Shown here piece after piece: positions 44,881 through 55,042 of a stretch of 64,000 bases of DNA. Below the pieces are notes generated by a model. It saw nothing but the letters and a program-made list of their open reading frames with translations, did not search any database and was not told where the DNA came from. The number at the start of each line of letters is the position of its first letter. Position 1 is the first letter of the stretch. The position numbers and the translations under genes are program-made. The DNA comes from Gemmatimonadaceae bacterium. Lineage in GTDB: Bacteria > Gemmatimonadota > Gemmatimonadetes > Gemmatimonadales > Gemmatimonadaceae. The stretch lies in assembly GCA_020851455.1 (NCBI GenBank), contig JADZCT010000039.1, positions 1 through 64,000 on the forward strand. Reading direction: 5' to 3'.

Positions 44881-45693
44881 TCAGGCTGGGGCGCTGGCGG
44901 TGATGGATGTGGTGTCCTTGACAGGAGTGCCGTCGGCGCGGACGGCTGGACGGAAGCGCACCTCGTCAAGCATCGCCCTGATCTTCCGGTTGTACCCCGC
45001 GTCCCGGCTCTCGTTGAAGTGAAGGAGTCGCGCGTTCCCCTTCTCATCCACCTCGAACACGGCCACGAGGGTGTATGGGCGGACCTTGGCCGGCACGGGC
45101 AATGGGAGCAGTGCAAGGTTCGTCACGGACGGCGGATAGACGCGCGAGCTCCCACCGCCAGTTCCCGGCCCGTTGCCGGATCCCGTCCCGGTTCCCGAGC
45201 CAGACCCGACCCCACCCCCCGTTCCCGTGCCGCTTCCCGCGCCATCTCCGCCCGTTCCCGCGCCCGAGCCGGTGCCGGGCAGCTTCGATACCGCGGTTGG
45301 CAACGGTTCCGCCGTGGGGAGTTCCGGCTTGAGCTCCGGCGGCTTCACGACCGGCTGCGGGGCCACGACCGGCTGCGGGACCTGGGGTGTCTGGCGCTCC
45401 TGCGCGGCAGCTGGCGGCGGGGGCGCAACTTCTATGTACAAGGCGCGCTCCGGACCTCCGCCGCGACGTCCGCCGCCACCCCCACCCGCCGGCCCCTTGC
45501 CGCCGGCGCCCTCGTTCCGGCTCACGATCATGTCGTGCGCAATCACCGGGCCGAGTATCAGGAAGGCGATGATCGCGTGCAGGAGGATGGACGCGGCGAT
45601 GCTTGTCACCCGGTTCTGGGGTGGCAGCGGAAGCCCGACCGGCGGGCGGTATGGCCTGTGGGGGCCCGGTGGCGGTGCGGGTTCGGTTTCCAT
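44881..45693 (-). CDS. TonB-like energy transducer with Gly-rich spacer
   Basis: A 270-residue protein. The N-terminus is Pro-rich and cytoplasmic. A single membrane anchor, SIAASILLHAIIAFLILGPV, is followed by a Gly-rich and Pro-rich periplasmic spacer, including a 44-residue Gly/Ser/Thr tract (about 140-183). The C-terminal domain VRPYTLVAVFEVDEKGNARL is TonB-like. It would carry proton-motive energy to outer-membrane receptors. It is the last gene of the TonB/Exb unit, 68 bases after exbD. A TolA-like role is the main alternative. Confidence 0.78.
   Translation of the reverse strand: METEPAPPPGPHRPYRPPVGLPLPPQNRVTSIAASILLHAIIAFLILGPVIAHDMIVSRNEGAGGKGPAGGGGGGRRGGGPERALYIEVAPPPPAAAQERQTPQVPQPVVAPQPVVKPPELKPELPTAEPLPTAVSKLPGTGSGAGTGGDGAGSGTGTGGGVGSGSGTGTGSGNGPGTGGGSSRVYPPSVTNLALLPLPVPAKVRPYTLVAVFEVDEKGNARLLHFNESRDAGYNRKIRAMLDEVRFRPAVRADGTPVKDTTSITASAPA
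45145..45276 (-). repeat. Low-complexity Gly/Ser/Thr coding tract
   Basis: Imperfect short repeats built from GGNACNGGN-like units encode residues about 140-183 of the TonB-like protein. They form a flexible spacer across the periplasm. Copy-number slippage would keep the frame only in multiples of three. Confidence 0.7.
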
Positions 45694-45761: not shown

Positions 45762-46187
45762 CTACTGTTTGCTGCCCGGAACCGGTGGCGTGGTGCCGAT
45801 CACCTTGACACCCGCCCCTCGCGCCTGGTCCATCGCGAAGATCACGTCCTGGTACTTCACCTCGGGATCGCCCTTGATGAAGATGATCTTCTCCGGACGC
45901 GGCTCGTAGATCTTCTTGAGCTCGTTGAACAGCTCCCCCTTCGAGACCTGCGCCTTGTTGATGAGGAACTGCTCGCCGGGATTCACCTCGAGCACGATTT
46001 GGTTGACCTTCTGGTTCTTCGGCGGCGGCGTCACCGTAGGATCGGGTAACTGGACGTCGAAGGCCTTTCGCCCCATCGGGATGATGACCATGAAGATGAT
46101 CAGCAGCACGAGGAGCACGTCAATCATTGGCGTGAGGTTAGGCTCGGAATTGAAGCCGCCTTTGCCACCTCCGGCACTCATGCCCAT
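45762..46187 (-). CDS. exbD: ExbD/TolR-type biopolymer transport protein
   Basis: A 141-residue inner-membrane protein of the TonB-ExbB-ExbD motor. The N-terminal helix NLTPMIDVLLVLLIIFMVII contains the essential Asp that carries protons. The periplasmic part has EVNPGEQFLINKAQVSKGEL. The start overlaps the TAA of the other exbD by one base (TAATG). Two non-identical ExbD proteins are encoded in tandem. Confidence 0.92.
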   Translation of the reverse strand: MGMSAGGGKGGFNSEPNLTPMIDVLLVLLIIFMVIIPMGRKAFDVQLPDPTVTPPPKNQKVNQIVLEVNPGEQFLINKAQVSKGELFNELKKIYEPRPEKIIFIKGDPEVKYQDVIFAMDQARGAGVKVIGTTPPVPGSKQ

Positions 46188-46663
46188 TACTTTTTCCCTC
46201 CGCCGAGGCCCATGTCCTGACCAGCGTTGTCAGACTCGATGAGCGACTGCGTGCCCTTGGTCTGGTCTGTAACAAGCGCCGCTACGCGCACGCCCTGGTG
46301 GGCGGCGATGTCCATGGCGTCTATGATGCGCTGGTACTTCAGATTCCGGTCAGCCTTGATGAACAGGATCTTGTCCTGGGTGCGGACGTCGTAGATCGCC
46401 CGGATCTTGGACGGCAGTTCTTCGTCCGAGTAGGGCTTCTTGTCGAGGTAGAACTTGCCCTCGGCGTCAATCCCGAGGATGACGTCCTCGTCCTCGTTCG
46501 GATGCGGCCTGATGTTCTGTCCTTCCGGCGGGACTGCATTGAAGCCGGCCAGCAGCTGCGGGATCACGATCATGAAGATGATCAGCAGCACGAGCATGAC
46601 GTCAATCATCGGCGTCACGTTTGGCTCGGCCCTTACGCCGTCATTGCTGAGTTGTACGGCCAT
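46187..46663 (-). CDS. exbD: ExbD/TolR-type biopolymer transport protein
   Basis: A 158-residue ExbD paralogue. NVTPMIDVMLVLLIIFMIVI holds the proton-carrying Asp. The periplasmic domain has LGIDAEGKFYLDKKPYSDEE and DKILFIKADRNLKYQRIIDA. It lies 35 bases after exbB and is coupled to the second exbD. Heteromeric ExbD pairs are known in other bacteria, but stoichiometry here is unknown. Confidence 0.92.
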   Translation of the reverse strand: MAVQLSNDGVRAEPNVTPMIDVMLVLLIIFMIVIPQLLAGFNAVPPEGQNIRPHPNEDEDVILGIDAEGKFYLDKKPYSDEELPSKIRAIYDVRTQDKILFIKADRNLKYQRIIDAMDIAAHQGVRVAALVTDQTKGTQSLIESDNAGQDMGLGGGKK

Positions 46664-46698: not shown

Positions 46699-47430
46699 TC
46701 AGACCTTGGCCGCGTTCTGCGCGGCGGTGTTGAACTCGCGCGTGAAGCGGCTGCGGCCGAACTCGCCCGAGACGCCCTTGATGAGATAGTCAATCATTTC
46801 CTTCGACGAGTACGTCATCTCGGCCGTGATGTTGTCAACCTTCGTCTGGAAGTAGTTGAACATCCACACCGCCGGGATTGCGACGAGGAGGCCGAAGGCG
46901 GTCGTGATGAGCGCCTCGGCGATGCCCGCCGAGATCGCGCCAAGGCCGCCGCCGCCGGACTGCGCCATGCCCGTGAAGGCGTTGACGATTCCCATCGTGG
47001 TACCGAGGAGGCCGACGAACGGCGCGGTGGCGCCGGTGGTGGCGAGCACGCCAAGTCCGCGCTTGGTGAGGACGATCGTCATCAGCATCTCGCGCTCGAC
47101 GGCGCGCTCCGCGGAGTTGATGTCGGAAACCGTCACGGAGCCGTCGGCGATGAGCGGCTTGATGTCGGCGAGCGCGTTGCCGAGGACGCGGGCAACATGC
47201 GACTTCTTGTAGCGCTGGGCGAGGTTGATAGCCTCGGCGAGGTTGTCCTCCTCGAGGAACTGGGAGAACTCAGGGGCGAACTTGCGCGTCTGCGATGCGG
47301 CAACGCGCAGGGCCCACCACTTCTGGATCATGATGGTGAGCGACCAGATGGACATGATTGCCAGGGTGAAAACGACGCCCTTGGCGAATGCGCCCATGGT
47401 GCCGTACAGCTCAACCAGGGAGAGATTCAT
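46699..47430 (-). CDS. exbB: ExbB/TolQ/MotA-family proton channel
   Basis: A 243-residue, three-helix ExbB. The first helix is GVVFTLAIMSIWSLTIMIQK, and the conserved pore region is LGVLATTGATAPFVGLLGTT with GIVNAFTGMA. The last helix is ALITTAFGLLVAIPAVWMFN. It stands between tonB and the two exbD genes, the usual order for a Ton system. Confidence 0.94.
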   Translation of the reverse strand: MNLSLVELYGTMGAFAKGVVFTLAIMSIWSLTIMIQKWWALRVAASQTRKFAPEFSQFLEEDNLAEAINLAQRYKKSHVARVLGNALADIKPLIADGSVTVSDINSAERAVEREMLMTIVLTKRGLGVLATTGATAPFVGLLGTTMGIVNAFTGMAQSGGGGLGAISAGIAEALITTAFGLLVAIPAVWMFNYFQTKVDNITAEMTYSSKEMIDYLIKGVSGEFGRSRFTREFNTAAQNAAKV

Positions 47431-47465: not shown

Positions 47466-48155
47466 CTACTTCTGGATTGCAAATACGAACGGCTGCTGCA
47501 CGAGCTGGCGGACGCGCTTGTTGCCGACCTCCGCCGGGATGAATCGCATGCCTGGCAGCGCTGCGCGCACGGCGGCCTCGAACAGCGGGTGCGATGTCTT
47601 CAGCACCTTGAACGAGCCCGGCTCGATGCGGCCCAGCGTGTCCACCACGAACTGCGCGAGCACTTCGCCTTCGACACCCGCCGACTTCAGGATGTCGGGG
47701 TAGCGCGGGCGGGCCGTGTTGGAGGCCTCGGTCACCGGCTTCTCGACCATGAACTCGAAGTACGGCTGGTCGCCTTCCGGCTTTGCCAGGACCGCCGGCC
47801 CAGCCGCGGCCTTGGCGGCCTGCACTCCCTTGCCCGAGAAATCGGCCTCGTTGGTCAGCTTCGCCGTGAGGTCAATGTCCGGCAGGACGTTCGGGATGTT
47901 CACCGGCGCGGTGAGCACCTGGAAGCTCTGCGGCGGAGGCGGAGCCTGGGCGGGCGGCGGCTTCGGCGGAGGCGGCTCGTCCTTCTTCACCTCCACGAAG
48001 TTCACCTTCTCCTCGACCTTCTCCTTCTCCTGCGTCGCCTGAAGCGTTGCCTTCACCGCGAGCACGATGAGCACGGTGTGCAGCACCAGGCTCATTATCG
48101 TGCTCCCGACGGAGCGCTGCTTCTGGGGTTTCGACTCCAGCAGGTTGTTGAACAA
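47466..48155 (-). CDS. tonB: TonB-family energy transducer
   Basis: A 229-residue TonB. The N-terminal anchor SVGSTIMSLVLHTVLIVLAV follows a short basic stretch; a Pro-rich spacer (KKDEPPPPKPPPAQAPPPPQ) spans the periplasm. The C-terminal domain RPRYPDILKSAGVEGEVLAQ is a TonB fold. The start is a rare TTG at 48155 with GAGGTG about five bases upstream. It leads the tonB-exbB-exbD-exbD-tonB unit. Phased TTAAG repeats lie about 95-120 bases upstream. Confidence 0.92.
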   Translation of the reverse strand: MFNNLLESKPQKQRSVGSTIMSLVLHTVLIVLAVKATLQATQEKEKVEEKVNFVEVKKDEPPPPKPPPAQAPPPPQSFQVLTAPVNIPNVLPDIDLTAKLTNEADFSGKGVQAAKAAAGPAVLAKPEGDQPYFEFMVEKPVTEASNTARPRYPDILKSAGVEGEVLAQFVVDTLGRIEPGSFKVLKTSHPLFEAAVRAALPGMRFIPAEVGNKRVRQLVQQPFVFAIQK

Positions 48156-48248
48156 AATGACACCTCGTGCGTGCTGTGGCCCAACTCGAAGTGGCTTGCG
48201 GACACAGGATAGTAAAGCCCGTTACATGGGGCCGTAATGGCGGAAAGA

Positions 48249-48275
48249 TTAAGATTTCCTTAAGTCAGCGTTAGA
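48249..48275. promoter_or_regulatory. Phased TTAAG repeats: candidate response-regulator site for the tonB operon
   Basis: TTAAGATTTCC, TTAAGTCAGCG and TTAGATGTTCC follow one another at an exact 11-base period (48249, 48260, 48271). Direct repeats one helical turn apart are the usual binding pattern of OmpR/PhoB-type regulators. The last unit overlaps the end of the histidine kinase gene; tonB starts about 95 bases further on. Confidence 0.5.
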
Positions 48276-49767
48276 TGTTCCTTGCTCCGCCAGGCGCTTG
48301 GGGAAGGATCACCGTGAAGGTGGTGCCGCGGCCGAGGCGGGAGGCGACGTCAATCCGCCCGTCGTGCGCTTGCGCAATCCACTGTGAAATCGCGAGCCCG
48401 AGGCCGGCTCCGCCGCCCGTTGAGCGCGTACGGGCAAGGTCGGCGCGCCAGAACCTGTCGAAGACGAAGGGAAGGTCGGCCGCCGCGATACCGATTCCGT
48501 CGTCGCGCACGGTGACGATTGCCTCGTCGTGACGGGCCTCGAGCGAGATCTCGACGGTTCCCCCGGACGACGTGTACTTCACGGCGTTCGTCGCGATGTT
48601 GAGGAACAGCTGGCGAAGCCGTTCCGGGTCGCCTTCGACGGCTACTGACTCCATGCGGGGCATCGTGACCGTGACGCCGCGCTCTTCGCCCAGGATCTGC
48701 GCCGTCTCCGCCACGTCGCGGATCACCGCTTCGAGGTCGAGCGGCACGCGCACGATGTCGAAGCGGCCCTCGTCGGCCCTGGCCAGCGTAAGGAGCGACT
48801 CGACGAGGCCCGTCATGCGCGACACCTCGTGCAGGGCTTCCTCCAGCGCCACCGCGTGCTCGTGCGCATCGCGCGGCGTCGCCATGGCGCGCTCGACGTC
48901 GGCACGGATCACGGCAAGGGGGGTGCGAAGCTCGTGGCTTGCGTCGGCGGTGAAGCGGCGCAGGGCGCCGAACGACACCTCGAGCCGCGAGAGCATGTCG
49001 TTCAGCGTCCTGGCGAGACTGCCGAACTCGTCGCGGGCATCGCCCTCGACGACCACACGGCGGTGAAGCGACCGGCCGTCGGTGATGGCGCCCACGTCGG
49101 CGACCACTCGCTGCACGGGCTCGAGAATCCGCCCGCCAAGCATCCAGGCCGCCAGCAGCGACACTGCGATGAGCAGCGGCGCCGAGAGCAGCGCTACGCT
49201 CGCCATCTCCCTCGTCGTCTCAGTCACGCGCCTCATCGAGACGCCAACGACGATGCGGCGTACGCCCCCGCCGAGCGGCGGGTCGTGCAAGCTGGCAACG
49301 AGCATGACGTCGTCGAAATTCAGCGATACGACCCGCGGCTCGCCTCCGCGTCTGATCGAATACGCGGCGCCCGTCAGACGGTCGAGATCCTGCCGCCACA
49401 GCCCCCGGATGTCGCCGATGAGGGCGTTGTTCGCGGCCTGCGCCTGGATCTGGCGTACGTCGCGCGACCAGTAGAAAACCTGGGTCGAGTCGCCGATGAT
49501 GATGTAGCCGGGGAGGTGATCGAGGAGCGAGCTGACCGTCGGCGTGAACGGCGAGGTTGGGGTGCCGAGGGCGTCCACCGCGACGCCGCGAAAGCTCTGG
49601 CGCTCGATGATGCCGCTCGCGAGCGCGGCAGTGTTGGTCGCCTCCTCGCCGATCTGCGCGGTGACCGCTGCGCGGCGCTGCGCTATGAGAATGGCGACGA
49701 GCAGCGCCAGGGCGCCAATCGTCGCGCCTCCGTACGACGCCATGATGCGCGAGCGAACGGACGCCAC
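48271..49767 (-). CDS. Sensor histidine kinase with HAMP domain
   Basis: A 498-residue membrane sensor kinase. The first helix is TIGALALLVAILIAQRRAAV; a periplasmic loop to about residue 185 carries the sensor; the second helix is SAPLLIAVSLLAAWML. A HAMP domain follows, then the dimerisation box with His278 in ASHELRTPLAVIRADVERAM. The ATPase domain has NIATNAVKYTSSGG (N box), VRDDGIGIAAADLPFVFDRF and GGGAGLGLAISQWI. It starts at a GTG nine bases after its response regulator. Input signal is unknown. Confidence 0.94.
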   Translation of the reverse strand: MASVRSRIMASYGGATIGALALLVAILIAQRRAAVTAQIGEEATNTAALASGIIERQSFRGVAVDALGTPTSPFTPTVSSLLDHLPGYIIIGDSTQVFYWSRDVRQIQAQAANNALIGDIRGLWRQDLDRLTGAAYSIRRGGEPRVVSLNFDDVMLVASLHDPPLGGGVRRIVVGVSMRRVTETTREMASVALLSAPLLIAVSLLAAWMLGGRILEPVQRVVADVGAITDGRSLHRRVVVEGDARDEFGSLARTLNDMLSRLEVSFGALRRFTADASHELRTPLAVIRADVERAMATPRDAHEHAVALEEALHEVSRMTGLVESLLTLARADEGRFDIVRVPLDLEAVIRDVAETAQILGEERGVTVTMPRMESVAVEGDPERLRQLFLNIATNAVKYTSSGGTVEISLEARHDEAIVTVRDDGIGIAAADLPFVFDRFWRADLARTRSTGGGAGLGLAISQWIAQAHDGRIDVASRLGRGTTFTVILPQAPGGARNI

Positions 49768-49776
49768 GGCTGGCCC

Positions 49777-50445
49777 CTAGCCCTTGATCACGTACCCGAC
49801 GCCGCGAACCGTCGTGATGAGCCTCTTCCGGCCCTTGTCGTCAACCTTCTTGCGAAGGTGGTTGATCACGACGTCCACGATGTTGGTGCCGGAATCGAAG
49901 TGGTATCCCCATGCGTACTCCGTGATGAGCGTCCGGCTCATCACCTTCCCCGCGTGGCGCATCAGGTACTCGAGGACGAGGTACTCCTTGGGGGTGAGCA
50001 CGATCGGCGCGCCGCCGCGGCTCACCTCCCGCGAGTCCAGATTGACCGTGAGGTCCGCAACCTTGAGCACCGGCGACGCTATGGCGCGCGGACGCCTCGA
50101 CAGCGCCTCGACCCGGGCGAGGAGTTCCTCGAAGGCGAACGGCTTGGTTACGTAGTCGTCCGCGCCCGCGCGCAGGGTCTCGACCTTTGCATCCACGGCG
50201 TCCTGCGCGGTGAGCACAAGCACCGGGCGCTCGAAGCCCTTCGCTCTCAGGCTCCGCAGAATCTCGATTCCAGACCGCTGTGGGAGGCGCAGGTCGAGCA
50301 CGAGGAGATCGTACGGCTGCGTGGAGGCGAGGCGCTCGCCTTCGCCGCCGTCGGCAACGAGGTCCACGGTGTAGCGCTGCTCCTCGAGGCCGCGCTTCAC
50401 GAAACTGCCGACGGTCGGGTCGTCCTCGATGACGAGCACCTTCAC
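49777..50445 (-). CDS. OmpR-family response regulator
   Basis: A 222-residue regulator. The receiver domain has the acidic pocket VIEDDPTVG and the phospho-accepting Asp51 in LLVLDLRLPQRSG; the conserved Lys is in DDYVTKPFAFEELLAR. The C-terminal winged helix contains VLTPKEYLVLEYLMRHAGKV and NIVDVVINHLRKKVDDKG. The start is GTG. It is paired with the kinase immediately downstream. Its likely target is the 11-base TTAAG repeats after the kinase gene, an inference from family habits. Confidence 0.95.
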   Translation of the reverse strand: MKVLVIEDDPTVGSFVKRGLEEQRYTVDLVADGGEGERLASTQPYDLLVLDLRLPQRSGIEILRSLRAKGFERPVLVLTAQDAVDAKVETLRAGADDYVTKPFAFEELLARVEALSRRPRAIASPVLKVADLTVNLDSREVSRGGAPIVLTPKEYLVLEYLMRHAGKVMSRTLITEYAWGYHFDSGTNIVDVVINHLRKKVDDKGRKRLITTVRGVGYVIKG

Positions 50446-50491: not shown

Positions 50492-52024
50492 TCACTCTTC
50501 GACTCCTGGCAGGACCACGCGGAAAGTGCTCCCCACGCCCACAGCGCTCTCGACCTCGAGGCGACCGCCGTGATCCTGCACGATCCCGTAGCAGATGGAC
50601 AAGCCGAGCCCCGTTCCCTTCCCCGCCTCCTTCGTCGTATAGAAGGGCTCGAATATCTTGCCGAGCTCTGACCGGGGGATTCCGGCGCCCTGGTCTACGA
50701 CCTCGGCGATGACGCACTCCGACGGGCTGCGGCCGCGGCGCGTGCGCACGACCACCTTCCCGGGCCTGTCGGTCATTGCATCCATCGCATTCAGCAGCAG
50801 CGCCATGAACACCTGCACGAGCTGCTCGCCGCTGGCGCGCGGCACTCTCGGCACGCCCTGGTCGAGGTCTCGCTCGAGCGGAAGCCGCTTGAAGCGCACA
50901 TGGTGCTTGAGGAGCATCAACGTGCGCTCGATCACCTCGTTGATGTCCACCCGCTCCCGCAGCGGCTGCTTGGGGCGGCTGAAGTCGAGCAGCCCGTCCA
51001 CGATCTGCTTGCAGCGCGCCACTTCGTTGTCAATGATCGTGAGATACTCCGGGATGTCGGGCGAGAGGACGGCGCCGGCCTTCCTGGCGTCGTCAATCTT
51101 GAACGCGAGACTCTCGGCGATCGCCGCAATCGTGGCGAGCGGGTTGTTGATCTCGTGCATGACGCCGGCCGCGAGCTGGCCGATGGCGGCGAGCTTCTCG
51201 GCGTGGGCGAACCTCGTCTGCGCCTCCCGCCAGTCGGTGATGTCCTCGCCGATGGTGATCACGTGCGTCACGCCGGAATCGCCGAGCCGCATGGGGATCT
51301 TGGAGATGCGGTACGTCCGCAGCTCGCCGGTGGCCACGGACTCCATCTGGTACTCCTGGATGCGGCCCGTGGCGAACACGTCGTCGAACTCGCGGCGGAG
51401 CATTTCCGCCGGCTGGCGGTGGAGTACCTCGAAGATCGTGCGGCCGATCGCCTCATCGCGCGAGACGCCCTGCATCCCCGCCTCCCGCTTGCGGTTCCAT
51501 GCCTGGATCCGGTAATCGCGGTCAATGACGTAGAGGCCCACCGGCATCGAGTCAATGATCCGGTCCATGAACCGGCGCTCGCGGTCAATCGCTGCGGTGC
51601 GCTCCTCGACCTCCACCTCCAGCCGGTGGTTCCGGTCGGCATGCACGAGAGCCGGCGCGAGGAGGTTGGCGACGGCCGTGATCAGCAGACGCCCGTCAGC
51701 ATCAACCGGCCGCGCGCACCGGACGGCCAGCCTGCCCGGGGCTCCGTTGCCGGTGGGGATCGTCGCGACGGCTACGGGCGCGTTGGCAGGCGGCGCATGG
51801 GCTGCCGCTGAAACGTCGTCGAGGGTCAGCGCGGCGACGCCAACGTCCCATGTGCGCACGAGAGCGCCATCGTACGTGAGCCACACGGCTGCTTCCTCGG
51901 CACCGATGGCAACGCGGAGCGAATCCAGGGCAAACACCACGGATTCGTCGAGCGGCCGGTCAACCGCGAGGCCGGCTATGATGCCCGCGAGGGCGTCGAG
52001 GACCGGTGCTTGTGCTGGTCTCAC
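50492..52024 (-). CDS. GAF-PAS histidine kinase (NtrB-like, soluble)
   Basis: A 510-residue cytoplasmic kinase without membrane segments. A GAF-like domain covers about residues 10-130, then a PAS domain (MDRIIDSMPVGLYVIDRDYR to about 265). The phospho-accepting His290 is in AAGVMHEINNPLATIAAIAE. The ATPase domain has LLLNAMDAMTDRPGK, DQGAGIPRSELGKIFEPFYT and GTGLGLSICYGIVQDHGG. The track start is 196 codons too early; the GTG at 52024 overlaps the ccmH stop (GTGA). It is thus co-translated with cytochrome maturation genes, and the OmpR-type pair follows 46 bases later. Confidence 0.88.
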   Translation of the reverse strand: MRPAQAPVLDALAGIIAGLAVDRPLDESVVFALDSLRVAIGAEEAAVWLTYDGALVRTWDVGVAALTLDDVSAAAHAPPANAPVAVATIPTGNGAPGRLAVRCARPVDADGRLLITAVANLLAPALVHADRNHRLEVEVEERTAAIDRERRFMDRIIDSMPVGLYVIDRDYRIQAWNRKREAGMQGVSRDEAIGRTIFEVLHRQPAEMLRREFDDVFATGRIQEYQMESVATGELRTYRISKIPMRLGDSGVTHVITIGEDITDWREAQTRFAHAEKLAAIGQLAAGVMHEINNPLATIAAIAESLAFKIDDARKAGAVLSPDIPEYLTIIDNEVARCKQIVDGLLDFSRPKQPLRERVDINEVIERTLMLLKHHVRFKRLPLERDLDQGVPRVPRASGEQLVQVFMALLLNAMDAMTDRPGKVVVRTRRGRSPSECVIAEVVDQGAGIPRSELGKIFEPFYTTKEAGKGTGLGLSICYGIVQDHGGRLEVESAVGVGSTFRVVLPGVEE

Positions 52025-52509
52025 GCGCCGGGCGATGAGCCGCCGGTTTGCGCGCCGGCGCCGCCGGAAGGGCGCGTCCAGCGCCGCACGTTCAGCGCGA
52101 CGATCACCCCACCCAGCGCGAGAATCGCGGCCGGGAGCAGGTATGCAAGCAGATTGAATCCCCGGGCGCGCGGCTCCAGGAGGATGAACTCCCCGTACTT
52201 CGACAGGAAGTAGCCGCGGACTTCGGCGTCGGACTTGCCCTCGGCAACCTGGCTCTTGATGAGCGCGCGCATCTGCTGCGCGAGCTCGGAGGGCGAGTCC
52301 TGTATCGAGAGCCCCTGGCATACCGGACACCTGAGCGAGCCGGCAAGCGCGGTGGTGCGCGCCTCGACGACGGAGTCGGGGAGGGCTGGCGCGGCCCGGC
52401 CGGCCGGGTCGGCCGACCGCGGCTGCTGCGCCGGGAGCGATGCGCCGACGAGCAGGATGCCGGCGAGCCGCAGCCAGCGGGCACGGCGCAGTGGCGGCAA
52501 GGCGGTCAT
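52021..52509 (-). CDS. ccmH: Cytochrome c maturation protein CcmH (CycL)
   Basis: A 162-residue periplasmic thiol-redox protein anchored at both ends; it helps reduce the apocytochrome CxxCH motif. The redox pair C61/C64 is in SLRCPVCQGLSIQDSPSELA, the family signature. GYFLSKYGEFILLEPRARGF and a C-terminal membrane helix (LLAYLLPAAILALGGVIVAL) follow. The ATG overlaps the ccmG stop (ATGA). The short CcmH lacks the TPR domain (CcmI), which is not found here. Confidence 0.94.
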   Translation of the reverse strand: MTALPPLRRARWLRLAGILLVGASLPAQQPRSADPAGRAAPALPDSVVEARTTALAGSLRCPVCQGLSIQDSPSELAQQMRALIKSQVAEGKSDAEVRGYFLSKYGEFILLEPRARGFNLLAYLLPAAILALGGVIVALNVRRWTRPSGGAGAQTGGSSPGA

Positions 52510-53093
52510 TCGCCCTTCGGCCCGGAGGCCGCTGGTGTCGCGGCGGCAAGTATCGAGTCCACCTTCGCCGTAAGCAGGCCGGCCCAGATAGGCCCGGTGT
52601 GCTTATAGGCAATCTTTCCGGAGGGGTCTATGACGAACGTCTCGGGCACGCCGTAGAGGCCGTAGTCAATCGCGGCGCGGGCTCCCGGGTCATCGAGCGC
52701 CGGATAGGCTTCCCCGCCCCGCTGGGCGACCCACTGGCGGCCGGCGTCCTTCACGTCGTTGTAGAGGACGCCAACGAACTGCACGGGCTTGCCGGCGAGC
52801 TGGCGGGCGGCAAGCGAGAGATCCTGGTGCTCGGTGACGCACTCGAGACACCACGAAGCCCAGAAGTTGAGCACCACGACCTTGCCACGGAGCGCCGCGA
52901 GCGACACTGTGTCGCCCACGTTGCGGGCATGCGCGCCTTCACCGGGGATGAAAACCTCGAGCGCAAATTCCGGTGCCTGCCGCCCCGGGAGCGGGGACGG
53001 AATCTCGCGAGGATCCTTCGTCAGGCCCCAGGCCAGCAGCACAATGAACGGCGCGGCAACCGCCGCGGCGACAGCGGATCGCTTCCAGTTCAT
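52506..53093 (-). CDS. ccmG: Thiol:disulfide interchange protein CcmG/DsbE
   Basis: A membrane-tethered periplasmic thioredoxin that supplies reductant to CcmH and apocytochromes. The ATG at 53093 gives 195 residues with an N-terminal anchor (AVAAPFIVLLAWGLT). The active site WASWCLECVTEH holds C82 and C85. The cis-Pro loop is in YGVPETFVIDPSGKIAYKHT. It overlaps ccmF (ATGA) upstream and ccmH downstream. The track start is 24 codons too early. Confidence 0.94.
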   Translation of the reverse strand: MNWKRSAVAAAVAAPFIVLLAWGLTKDPREIPSPLPGRQAPEFALEVFIPGEGAHARNVGDTVSLAALRGKVVVLNFWASWCLECVTEHQDLSLAARQLAGKPVQFVGVLYNDVKDAGRQWVAQRGGEAYPALDDPGARAAIDYGLYGVPETFVIDPSGKIAYKHTGPIWAGLLTAKVDSILAAATPAASGPKGE

Positions 53094-55042
53094 CCCAACC
53101 TCCGCGCCGGCCACCCTGCGATGAGCGCCCCAAGGCAGATGATCCCGCCGCCCGTCCAGATCCACGGCACGAGGGGCTCGCTGATGATCTTGATCGTTGC
53201 GGTTGATCCGTCCTGCGCGAACGACATCAGATTCATGTAGACGTCACCCACCGGCGTGCTCCGGACGTCGGGCGTCGGCACCGGCTGCTGCGACATCGGA
53301 TAGATGTTCATCCGCGGCGACATCGTCGCGTAGGGCTGTCCGTCGCGGAGCAGTTCCACCGTCGCGCCGATCACCGCCCGCTGCGGCTCCTCGCGGGCCC
53401 ATACGTCGTTCAGCCGCGCGTTGACCGACCCAAGGGTGAGCACCTCCCCCGGCTTCAGCGTAGCTTCACGCTCGCTGCGAAGCGTGGAGCTTGCAGCCAC
53501 CCCGATGGCCGCGACGAAGATCCCCATGTGCGCCACGTAGCCGCCGTAGCGCCTCCGGTTGCCGGCAACCAGGCGCGCGAGGGCCACGGGCACGGTTTCA
53601 CCATGGGCCGTGCGGCGGGCGCGCACCCCGGTCACGAACTCGGCAATATTGAGCGTCGCGGCGAAGCCCGCGAGCGCGAACGCGAGGATGCCATACGCGC
53701 TGCGGGCGCCGGCCGCGGCCGCGAGCGCGCTGAGCAGCACGCCGACTGCCGCGCCGGGAATCATCTTGCGCCGGAGCGCCGGCCAGTCGCCCCGCCGCCA
53801 CGGGAGCGCCGGGCCCACTCCCATGAGGAACAGCAGCGCGACGACGAGCGGCAGCGTCATCCGGTTGAAGAACGGCTCGCCGACACTCACCTTGACGCCA
53901 CGGAACGCTTCCGCAACGAGCGGGAAGAGCGTGCCGATGAGCACGGTGAACATGAATGCCGTGAGCAGGAGGTTGTTGAGGAGAAAAACCGTCTCGCGCG
54001 AGAGCGGCGCGTCGAGCCGGCCCTCGGTGTGGAGCTTGTCGGAGCTGCCAGCCACGAGCACGGCGGATCCGATCAGGACGAGCGCGATGAAGCCGAGGAA
54101 GTAGTAACCGATCGGTCCCTGCGTGAACGCGTGAACCGAGGAGATGATGCCGCTTCGCGTGAGGAACGTGCCGAGGATCGTGAGGACGAAGGTCACGACC
54201 ATGAGGTTCACGTTCCAGAGTTTCAGCATCCCCCGCCGCTCCTGGACCATCACGGAGTGCAGGTACGCGGTAGCGGTGAGCCAGGGAATGAACGAGGCAT
54301 TCTCGACGGGGTCCCATGCCCAGTAGCCGCCCCAGCCGAGCACCTCGTACGACCACCACATCCCGGCGACGATCGCGGCGCTGAGGAATCCCCACGCCAG
54401 CAGCGTCCAGCGCCGCGTGAGGCGGATCCACTCCTCGTCCTGCTTCGCGCCCGTGATGAGCGCGGCGACGGCGAAGGCGAACGGCACCGACATCCCCACA
54501 TAGCCCAGGTAGAGGAGCGGCGGGTGGACCGCCATGAGGATGTGGTTCTGGAGCAGCGGGTTGGGGCCGGGGCCGTCGGGCGGCGCAGGGCTTACGAGGT
54601 GGAAGGGATTGGCCGGCCCGGTGAGCAGGACGTGGAAGAACAGGGCAATCACGAGCAGCACTGCCGACGCGTACGGCACGAGGTTCCCGGGCCGGTTGCG
54701 GTTGGCATAGACGACGAGCGCGCTGTAGAGCGCGAGCACCCACGCCCAGAAGAGGATCGAGCCCTCGAGCGCGCCCCAGACCGATATGATCGTGAAGAAG
54801 ACAGGCGTCGCGCGGCTCCCGACCTGCGCCACGTACGAGATGGAAAAGTCGTGGGTGACGAGCGCGAAGATCATCGCCGCGATCGCGACGGTGACGAGGG
54901 CGAAGTTGGAATACACGGCAGCCCGCGCGATGGCCACCCACTCCCGCCTTCCCCGCGCGATCGCGATGGGCGCCACTATCCCGCCCACCGCACTGACTGC
55001 CAGCGCGAACCAGAGCGCGTCGAGCGCGATCAGCCGGGTCAC
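53090..55042 (-). CDS. ccmF: Cytochrome c haem lyase subunit CcmF
   Basis: A 650-residue, 15-helix membrane protein that transfers haem from CcmE to apocytochrome c. The WWD haem-handling domain is in MWWSYEVLGWGGYWAWDPVE and NASFIPWL. Conserved His residues lie in LMAVHPPLLYLGYVGMSVPF and TAYLHSVMVQERRGMLK. The start is a GTG overlapping the ccmE stop (GTGA). Confidence 0.96.
   Translation of the reverse strand: MTRLIALDALWFALAVSAVGGIVAPIAIARGRREWVAIARAAVYSNFALVTVAIAAMIFALVTHDFSISYVAQVGSRATPVFFTIISVWGALEGSILFWAWVLALYSALVVYANRNRPGNLVPYASAVLLVIALFFHVLLTGPANPFHLVSPAPPDGPGPNPLLQNHILMAVHPPLLYLGYVGMSVPFAFAVAALITGAKQDEEWIRLTRRWTLLAWGFLSAAIVAGMWWSYEVLGWGGYWAWDPVENASFIPWLTATAYLHSVMVQERRGMLKLWNVNLMVVTFVLTILGTFLTRSGIISSVHAFTQGPIGYYFLGFIALVLIGSAVLVAGSSDKLHTEGRLDAPLSRETVFLLNNLLLTAFMFTVLIGTLFPLVAEAFRGVKVSVGEPFFNRMTLPLVVALLFLMGVGPALPWRRGDWPALRRKMIPGAAVGVLLSALAAAAGARSAYGILAFALAGFAATLNIAEFVTGVRARRTAHGETVPVALARLVAGNRRRYGGYVAHMGIFVAAIGVAASSTLRSEREATLKPGEVLTLGSVNARLNDVWAREEPQRAVIGATVELLRDGQPYATMSPRMNIYPMSQQPVPTPDVRSTPVGDVYMNLMSFAQDGSTATIKIISEPLVPWIWTGGGIICLGALIAGWPARRLG

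Follow-up and report, generated by a model that had tools for sequence, protein, structure and literature searches.

The three repeats that precede tonB in the 64,000-nucleotide stretch of DNA analysed here (the window) are best explained as a three-unit, head-to-tail operator. Its binder would be the OmpR/PhoB-family response regulator encoded upstream on the tonB strand, which is probably phosphorylated by its cognate sensor kinase and most likely activates the tonB-exbB-exbD-exbD genes (Table 1). We put the probability of this reading at roughly 0.8. On the forward strand the repeats start at 48249 and 48260 (TTAAG) and at 48271 (TTAG), with exactly 11 bp between starts. This bears out the preliminary description of three repeats at 11-base spacing, and its placement of the site ahead of tonB is also correct (the array lies some 92-120 bp upstream of the TTG start at 48155). 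The functional strand of the array is the minus strand, that of tonB, on which its three units, at 11-bp intervals, give CTAAC-N6-TTAAG-GAAATC-TTAATC. OmpR/PhoB tandem operators consist of direct repeats, each about 6 bp long, at a spacing of 10-11 bp on one face of the DNA, and the array has this arrangement. Taken with the preceding C, units 2 and 3 give CTTAAG-GAAAT-CTTAAT, which follows the PmrA-box pattern YTTAAKN5YTTAAK exactly. The window site is the single exact match to this pattern in the whole 2.96 Mb genome, and no further site was found across that genome at one mismatch. The kind of site is well known; the regulon, consisting of tonB genes, appears undescribed.

Table 1. Features of the window that make up the proposed regulatory unit, in order along the minus strand.
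Feature	Positions	Strand	Remarks
OmpR/PhoB-family response regulator, proposed binder	49777..50445	-	222 aa; receiver and Trans_reg_C winged helix
Cognate sensor histidine kinase	48271..49767	-	HAMP, HisKA, HATPase_c; PAS-like extracytoplasmic sensor
Operator unit 1	48269..48274	-	CTAACG; TAA is the kinase gene stop codon (48271-48273)
Operator unit 2	48258..48263	-	TTAAGG (with preceding C, CTTAAG)
Operator unit 3	48247..48252	-	TTAATC (with preceding C, CTTAAT)
-35-like hexamer	48232..48237	-	TTACGG; aligned sites have TTnCC, +15 to +20 from unit 3; predicted position
-10-like hexamer	48209..48214	-	TACTAT, 17-bp spacer; aligned sites have TAnnnT, about +37 to +43 relative to unit 3; predicted position
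tonB	47466..48155	-	229 aa; TTG start, GAGGTG just upstream; TonB_C Pfam match; first operon gene
exbB/tolQ-like proton channel gene	46699..47430	-	MotA_ExbB domain
exbD-like gene	46187..46663	-	ExbD domain
Second exbD-like gene	45762..46187	-	ExbD domain

The genes downstream of the array carry TonB_C, MotA_ExbB and ExbD domains consecutively, as in a TonB-ExbB-ExbD operon. The ExbB-like protein scores higher against TolQ (143.8 bits) than against ExbB (105.9 bits), both below cut-off, so that the operon could equally be TolQ-like. The last gene after the exbD pair (44881-45693, minus strand) encodes a TonB- or TolA-like, Pro/Gly-rich protein with one N-terminal membrane segment, for which neither a Pfam nor an NCBIfam model gave a match.

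The candidate binder combines a receiver with a winged-helix Trans_reg_C domain, and an orthologue adjoins the site in almost all genomes. With few exceptions across the order, these orthologues are found 2-3 kb upstream of tonB and on its strand; nearly all are 65-89% identical, and the gene order regulator-kinase-tonB is maintained across three families. The orthologues are confined to the order: outside it the best homologue reaches at most 50% identity, no better than paralogues. Two genomes with tonB at the class level (three loci, one with little upstream DNA) had neither a regulator neighbour nor the repeats. Among curated families, the regulator scored highest with the heavy-metal family CusR/CopR/CzcR (TIGR01387; 244.2 bits, below the cut-off of 279.2), and it stayed below the cut-offs for the PmrA equivalog NF007928 (188.9 against 330 bits) and PhoB TIGR02154 (177.1 against 296.2 bits). 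Its closest solved DNA-binding domain is that of PcoR (2jzy). The sensor of the kinase is predicted with confidence to have a PAS-like fold (pLDDT 89); because Foldseek gave only weak matches (best E ~1e-3; WalK/LuxQ/PAS), we claim no ligand for it. A second histidine kinase gene (PAS_4, HisKA, HATPase_c; 50492-52612, minus strand) stops 46 bp short of the regulator gene, and many relatives have a kinase-like match at this position. It is possibly on the regulator's transcript and may also feed the regulator. Cytochrome c biogenesis genes of ccmH-like and thioredoxin/redoxin-like type (52021-53165, also on the minus strand) lie upstream of the two-component genes.

Conservation in relatives, the lack of which would have refuted the preliminary description, is strong. 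Nearly all members of the order that were sampled (Gemmatimonadota; three families) have the array ahead of tonB; the named relatives are Gemmatimonadota, labelled mostly Gemmatimonadaceae or Gemmatimonas. In 56 orthologous tonB upstream regions, drawn from the three families, TAAN/TCAT word pairs occurred 89 times at 11 bp, 55 times at 22 bp and 15 times at 33 bp, against a shuffle expectation of 0.8-0.9 at each of these distances, and every other spacing from 4 to 35 bp had at most 4 pairs; the shuffles preserve nothing beyond base composition and the loci share ancestry, so these counts describe the pattern and are no measure of probability. A profile built from 112 distinct tonB upstream regions reads [CG]TAAC, TT[AC]A[GT]C and TTAAT[CG]TT, with TTAAT of unit 3 nearly invariant within the window's family, and 97% of these regions score above 12 bits. 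When the profile was trained without the window's genus and the closest named relatives, the window site still scored 40.7 bits, for which the chance expectation in the window is 9e-10 (E ~1e-9); the second-best place in the window scored 12.0 bits. Alignment of 102 sites gave three islands of conservation 11 bp apart, with flat flanks except for a promoter-like pair. Together with the spacing and the conserved unit 1, this order-wide conservation supports the earlier interpretation as an OmpR/PhoB-type tandem site for the adjacent regulator.

The repeat at 48271 (unit 1) overlaps the stop of the kinase reading frame and contains the stop codon, which looked like a coding coincidence and could indicate that the whole array consists of chance AT-rich repeats or is a by-product of that codon. 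Unit 1 overlaps the kinase stop in 10 of 53 related genomes and is situated entirely past it in 29; the kinase frame of the other 14 is longer, with its stop in unit 2 or unit 3. Most of the 29 genomes with unit 1 wholly outside the kinase gene keep the TAA/TCA core, and in most relatives the unit is CTAAC, GTAAC or CTAAT, also where it is outside the kinase frame. Because the core is kept there, unit 1 is a DNA element at which the kinase gene happens to end. With the conservation and the spacing statistics, this refutes chance or a stop-codon by-product as the origin of the repeats. Roughly half of the genomes use an operator TAA triplet as the kinase stop, and which repeat provides it varies (loci L035, L041, L055 and L056).

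The core of the window site can also be read as a palindrome, TTAAG-N5-CTTAA, which would suit a symmetric dimer or an RNA hairpin. The orthologous GTCATC-N5-GTCATC and CTAAC units are non-palindromic and all point in the same direction, and the sites found in both other families contradict the inverted-repeat reading, which we consider very improbable. An RNA element was rejected: Rfam gave no match, the sister-family sites cannot pair, and no terminator-like site was found.

The 31-nt sequence profile (covariance-model route) was searched against whole genomes. Matches were present in 35 of 41 genomes, and in 33 of these the top match preceded a tonB gene; of the two exceptions, G041 has its top match elsewhere and G045 is undecided at a contig end. 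A second set of 26 genomes, a few of which may overlap the named loci behind the model, gave matches in 21, the top one before tonB in 20. The window's own genome contains exactly one match. Unlinked tonB paralogues carry a matching array in 14 of 17 cases, and a fifteenth was recognised by eye, with the repeats in another register. The arrays of the unlinked paralogues L248, L249, L250 and L243 comprise four or five units at 11-bp spacing, e.g., with repeated CTAAC plus TTAAC. Other exact TTAAGN5CTTAAT matches (G030, G022, G043 and G026), one intragenic and none at tonB, were treated as chance. Autoregulation is common in two-component systems of the OmpR/PhoB sort. It was not seen here: among the related genomes that were scored, none has a copy of the site (above 12 bits) in the 300 bp preceding the regulator gene.

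The strongest pointer to the neighbouring regulator as the binder is a covariation between protein and DNA. There is almost no variation in the recognition helix, TNIVDVVIN[H/R]LRKK (TNIVDVVINHLRKK at residues 187-200 in the window regulator, with His196), and residue 196 is its sole fixed difference. All 36 regulators from the window's family have His there, as do all 71 named ones, and all 22 from the two other families have Arg. Units 2 and 3 begin with T in 31/34 and 30/34 genomes of the His196 group (the remainder having C or G), and with G in 19/19 of the Arg196 group. Position 196 corresponds to Arg201 of PhoB, which hydrogen-bonds guanine, to Asn196 of PmrA (PMC3973317), and to His198 of KdpE (PMC3264566). 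Residue 196 tracks the first half-site base as the PhoB Arg201-guanine contacts predict, although the correlation is essentially that of one evolutionary event between families, with exceptions tolerated.

This bears on the alternative that another OmpR/PhoB-family regulator, e.g., a PhoB or PmrA homologue, binds the array, leaving the neighbouring pair a bystander. The genome does encode several more OmpR-family regulators, and the core fits known boxes, YTTAAKN5YTTAAK (PmrA) in the window and TGTCATN5TGTCAT (Pho box) in the other families of the order. However, site and neighbouring regulator occur side by side in about 55 genomes and over the same taxonomic range, the helix residue and the half-site base covary, and the sites occur almost only at tonB genes, which is not a regulon of PhoB or PmrA size. 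We regard a different binder as improbable.

Among the closest known systems, the PmrA (BasR) box consists of two head-to-tail hexamers with a 5-bp spacer, matched exactly by the window core (PMC3973317, PMC10927774), but the window has a third unit 11 bp upstream, its target is tonB and not lipid A modification genes, and its regulator has His instead of Asn at position 196 and is not a PmrA equivalog. The Pho box TGTCAT-N5-TGTCAT resembles the TGTCATCGAATTGTCAT found before tonB in the sister families, whose regulators have Arg at the position of PhoB Arg201, whereas the window site is of the TTAA type, at tonB, with a regulator below the PhoB cut-off. The KdpE site (TTTATA/TTTACA, 5-bp spacer) likewise has AT-rich hexamers at 11 bp, and His occupies this helix position in KdpE as well (H198; PMC3264566); the KdpE site, however, has two units and lies at a potassium pump operon. 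CusR/CopR/CzcR (TIGR01387) is the best curated family for the regulator, with the PcoR domain as the closest solved one, yet the regulator falls below the cut-off and the window operon has no metal-resistance genes. VgrRS (ColRS) of Xanthomonas also exerts two-component control over TonB-dependent uptake, but it controls the receptor gene tdvA and hundreds of other genes, without a dedicated tonB operator (PMC5231390).

The position of the operator gives an indication of the sign of regulation. In operator-aligned sites, conservation resumes downstream only at TTnCC and TAnnnT, while the distance from operator to tonB start varies from 71 to 162. A promoter-like pair at constant spacing downstream of the operator suggests activation. 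A plain sigma-70 consensus scan gave no match in this analysis. Transcription would start near 48202, with the units at about -49, -60 and -71. The same operator and regulator could instead repress tonB, for example by blocking or holding polymerase at the promoter; the position of a site does not by itself determine the sign, and VgrR represses a TonB-dependent receptor gene (PMC5231390). Against this, the array stops about 9 bp short of the -35-like hexamer and does not overlap it, which is the usual activator arrangement, and the hexamer itself is poor (TTACGG), as is often the case in activator-dependent promoters. We consider repression the less likely sign, and the constant location of the operator just ahead of the promoter-like pair suggests activation.

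In the mechanism we favour, the kinase would phosphorylate the regulator upon an extracytoplasmic signal, and two or three regulator subunits would then align along a single face of the DNA, immediately ahead of the -35 element. The bound regulator most likely activates tonB-exbB-exbD-exbD, the motor of TonB-dependent outer-membrane uptake, and in relatives it probably acts in trans on unlinked tonB paralogues as well. A literature search, with subscription journals outside its coverage and in which absence is weak evidence, found no two-component system with recognisable sites nearly all at tonB, no paper joining a tonB promoter with a response regulator and a two-component system, and nothing on this system in Gemmatimonas.

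We lean, by a modest degree, towards a broader picture in which an order-wide two-component system is dedicated to the TonB energisation genes, each genome having one operator or a few, always at tonB genes, the operator having drifted from a Pho-box-like to a PmrA-box-like form by a single Arg196 to His change. As operator and helix change together, the order is also a natural test of specificity change in OmpR/PhoB regulators. Iron repression is the control for which the tonB gene is best known. If true, a two-component system dedicated to the TonB motor would mean that outer-membrane uptake in this abundant and poorly studied phylum follows a different control logic.
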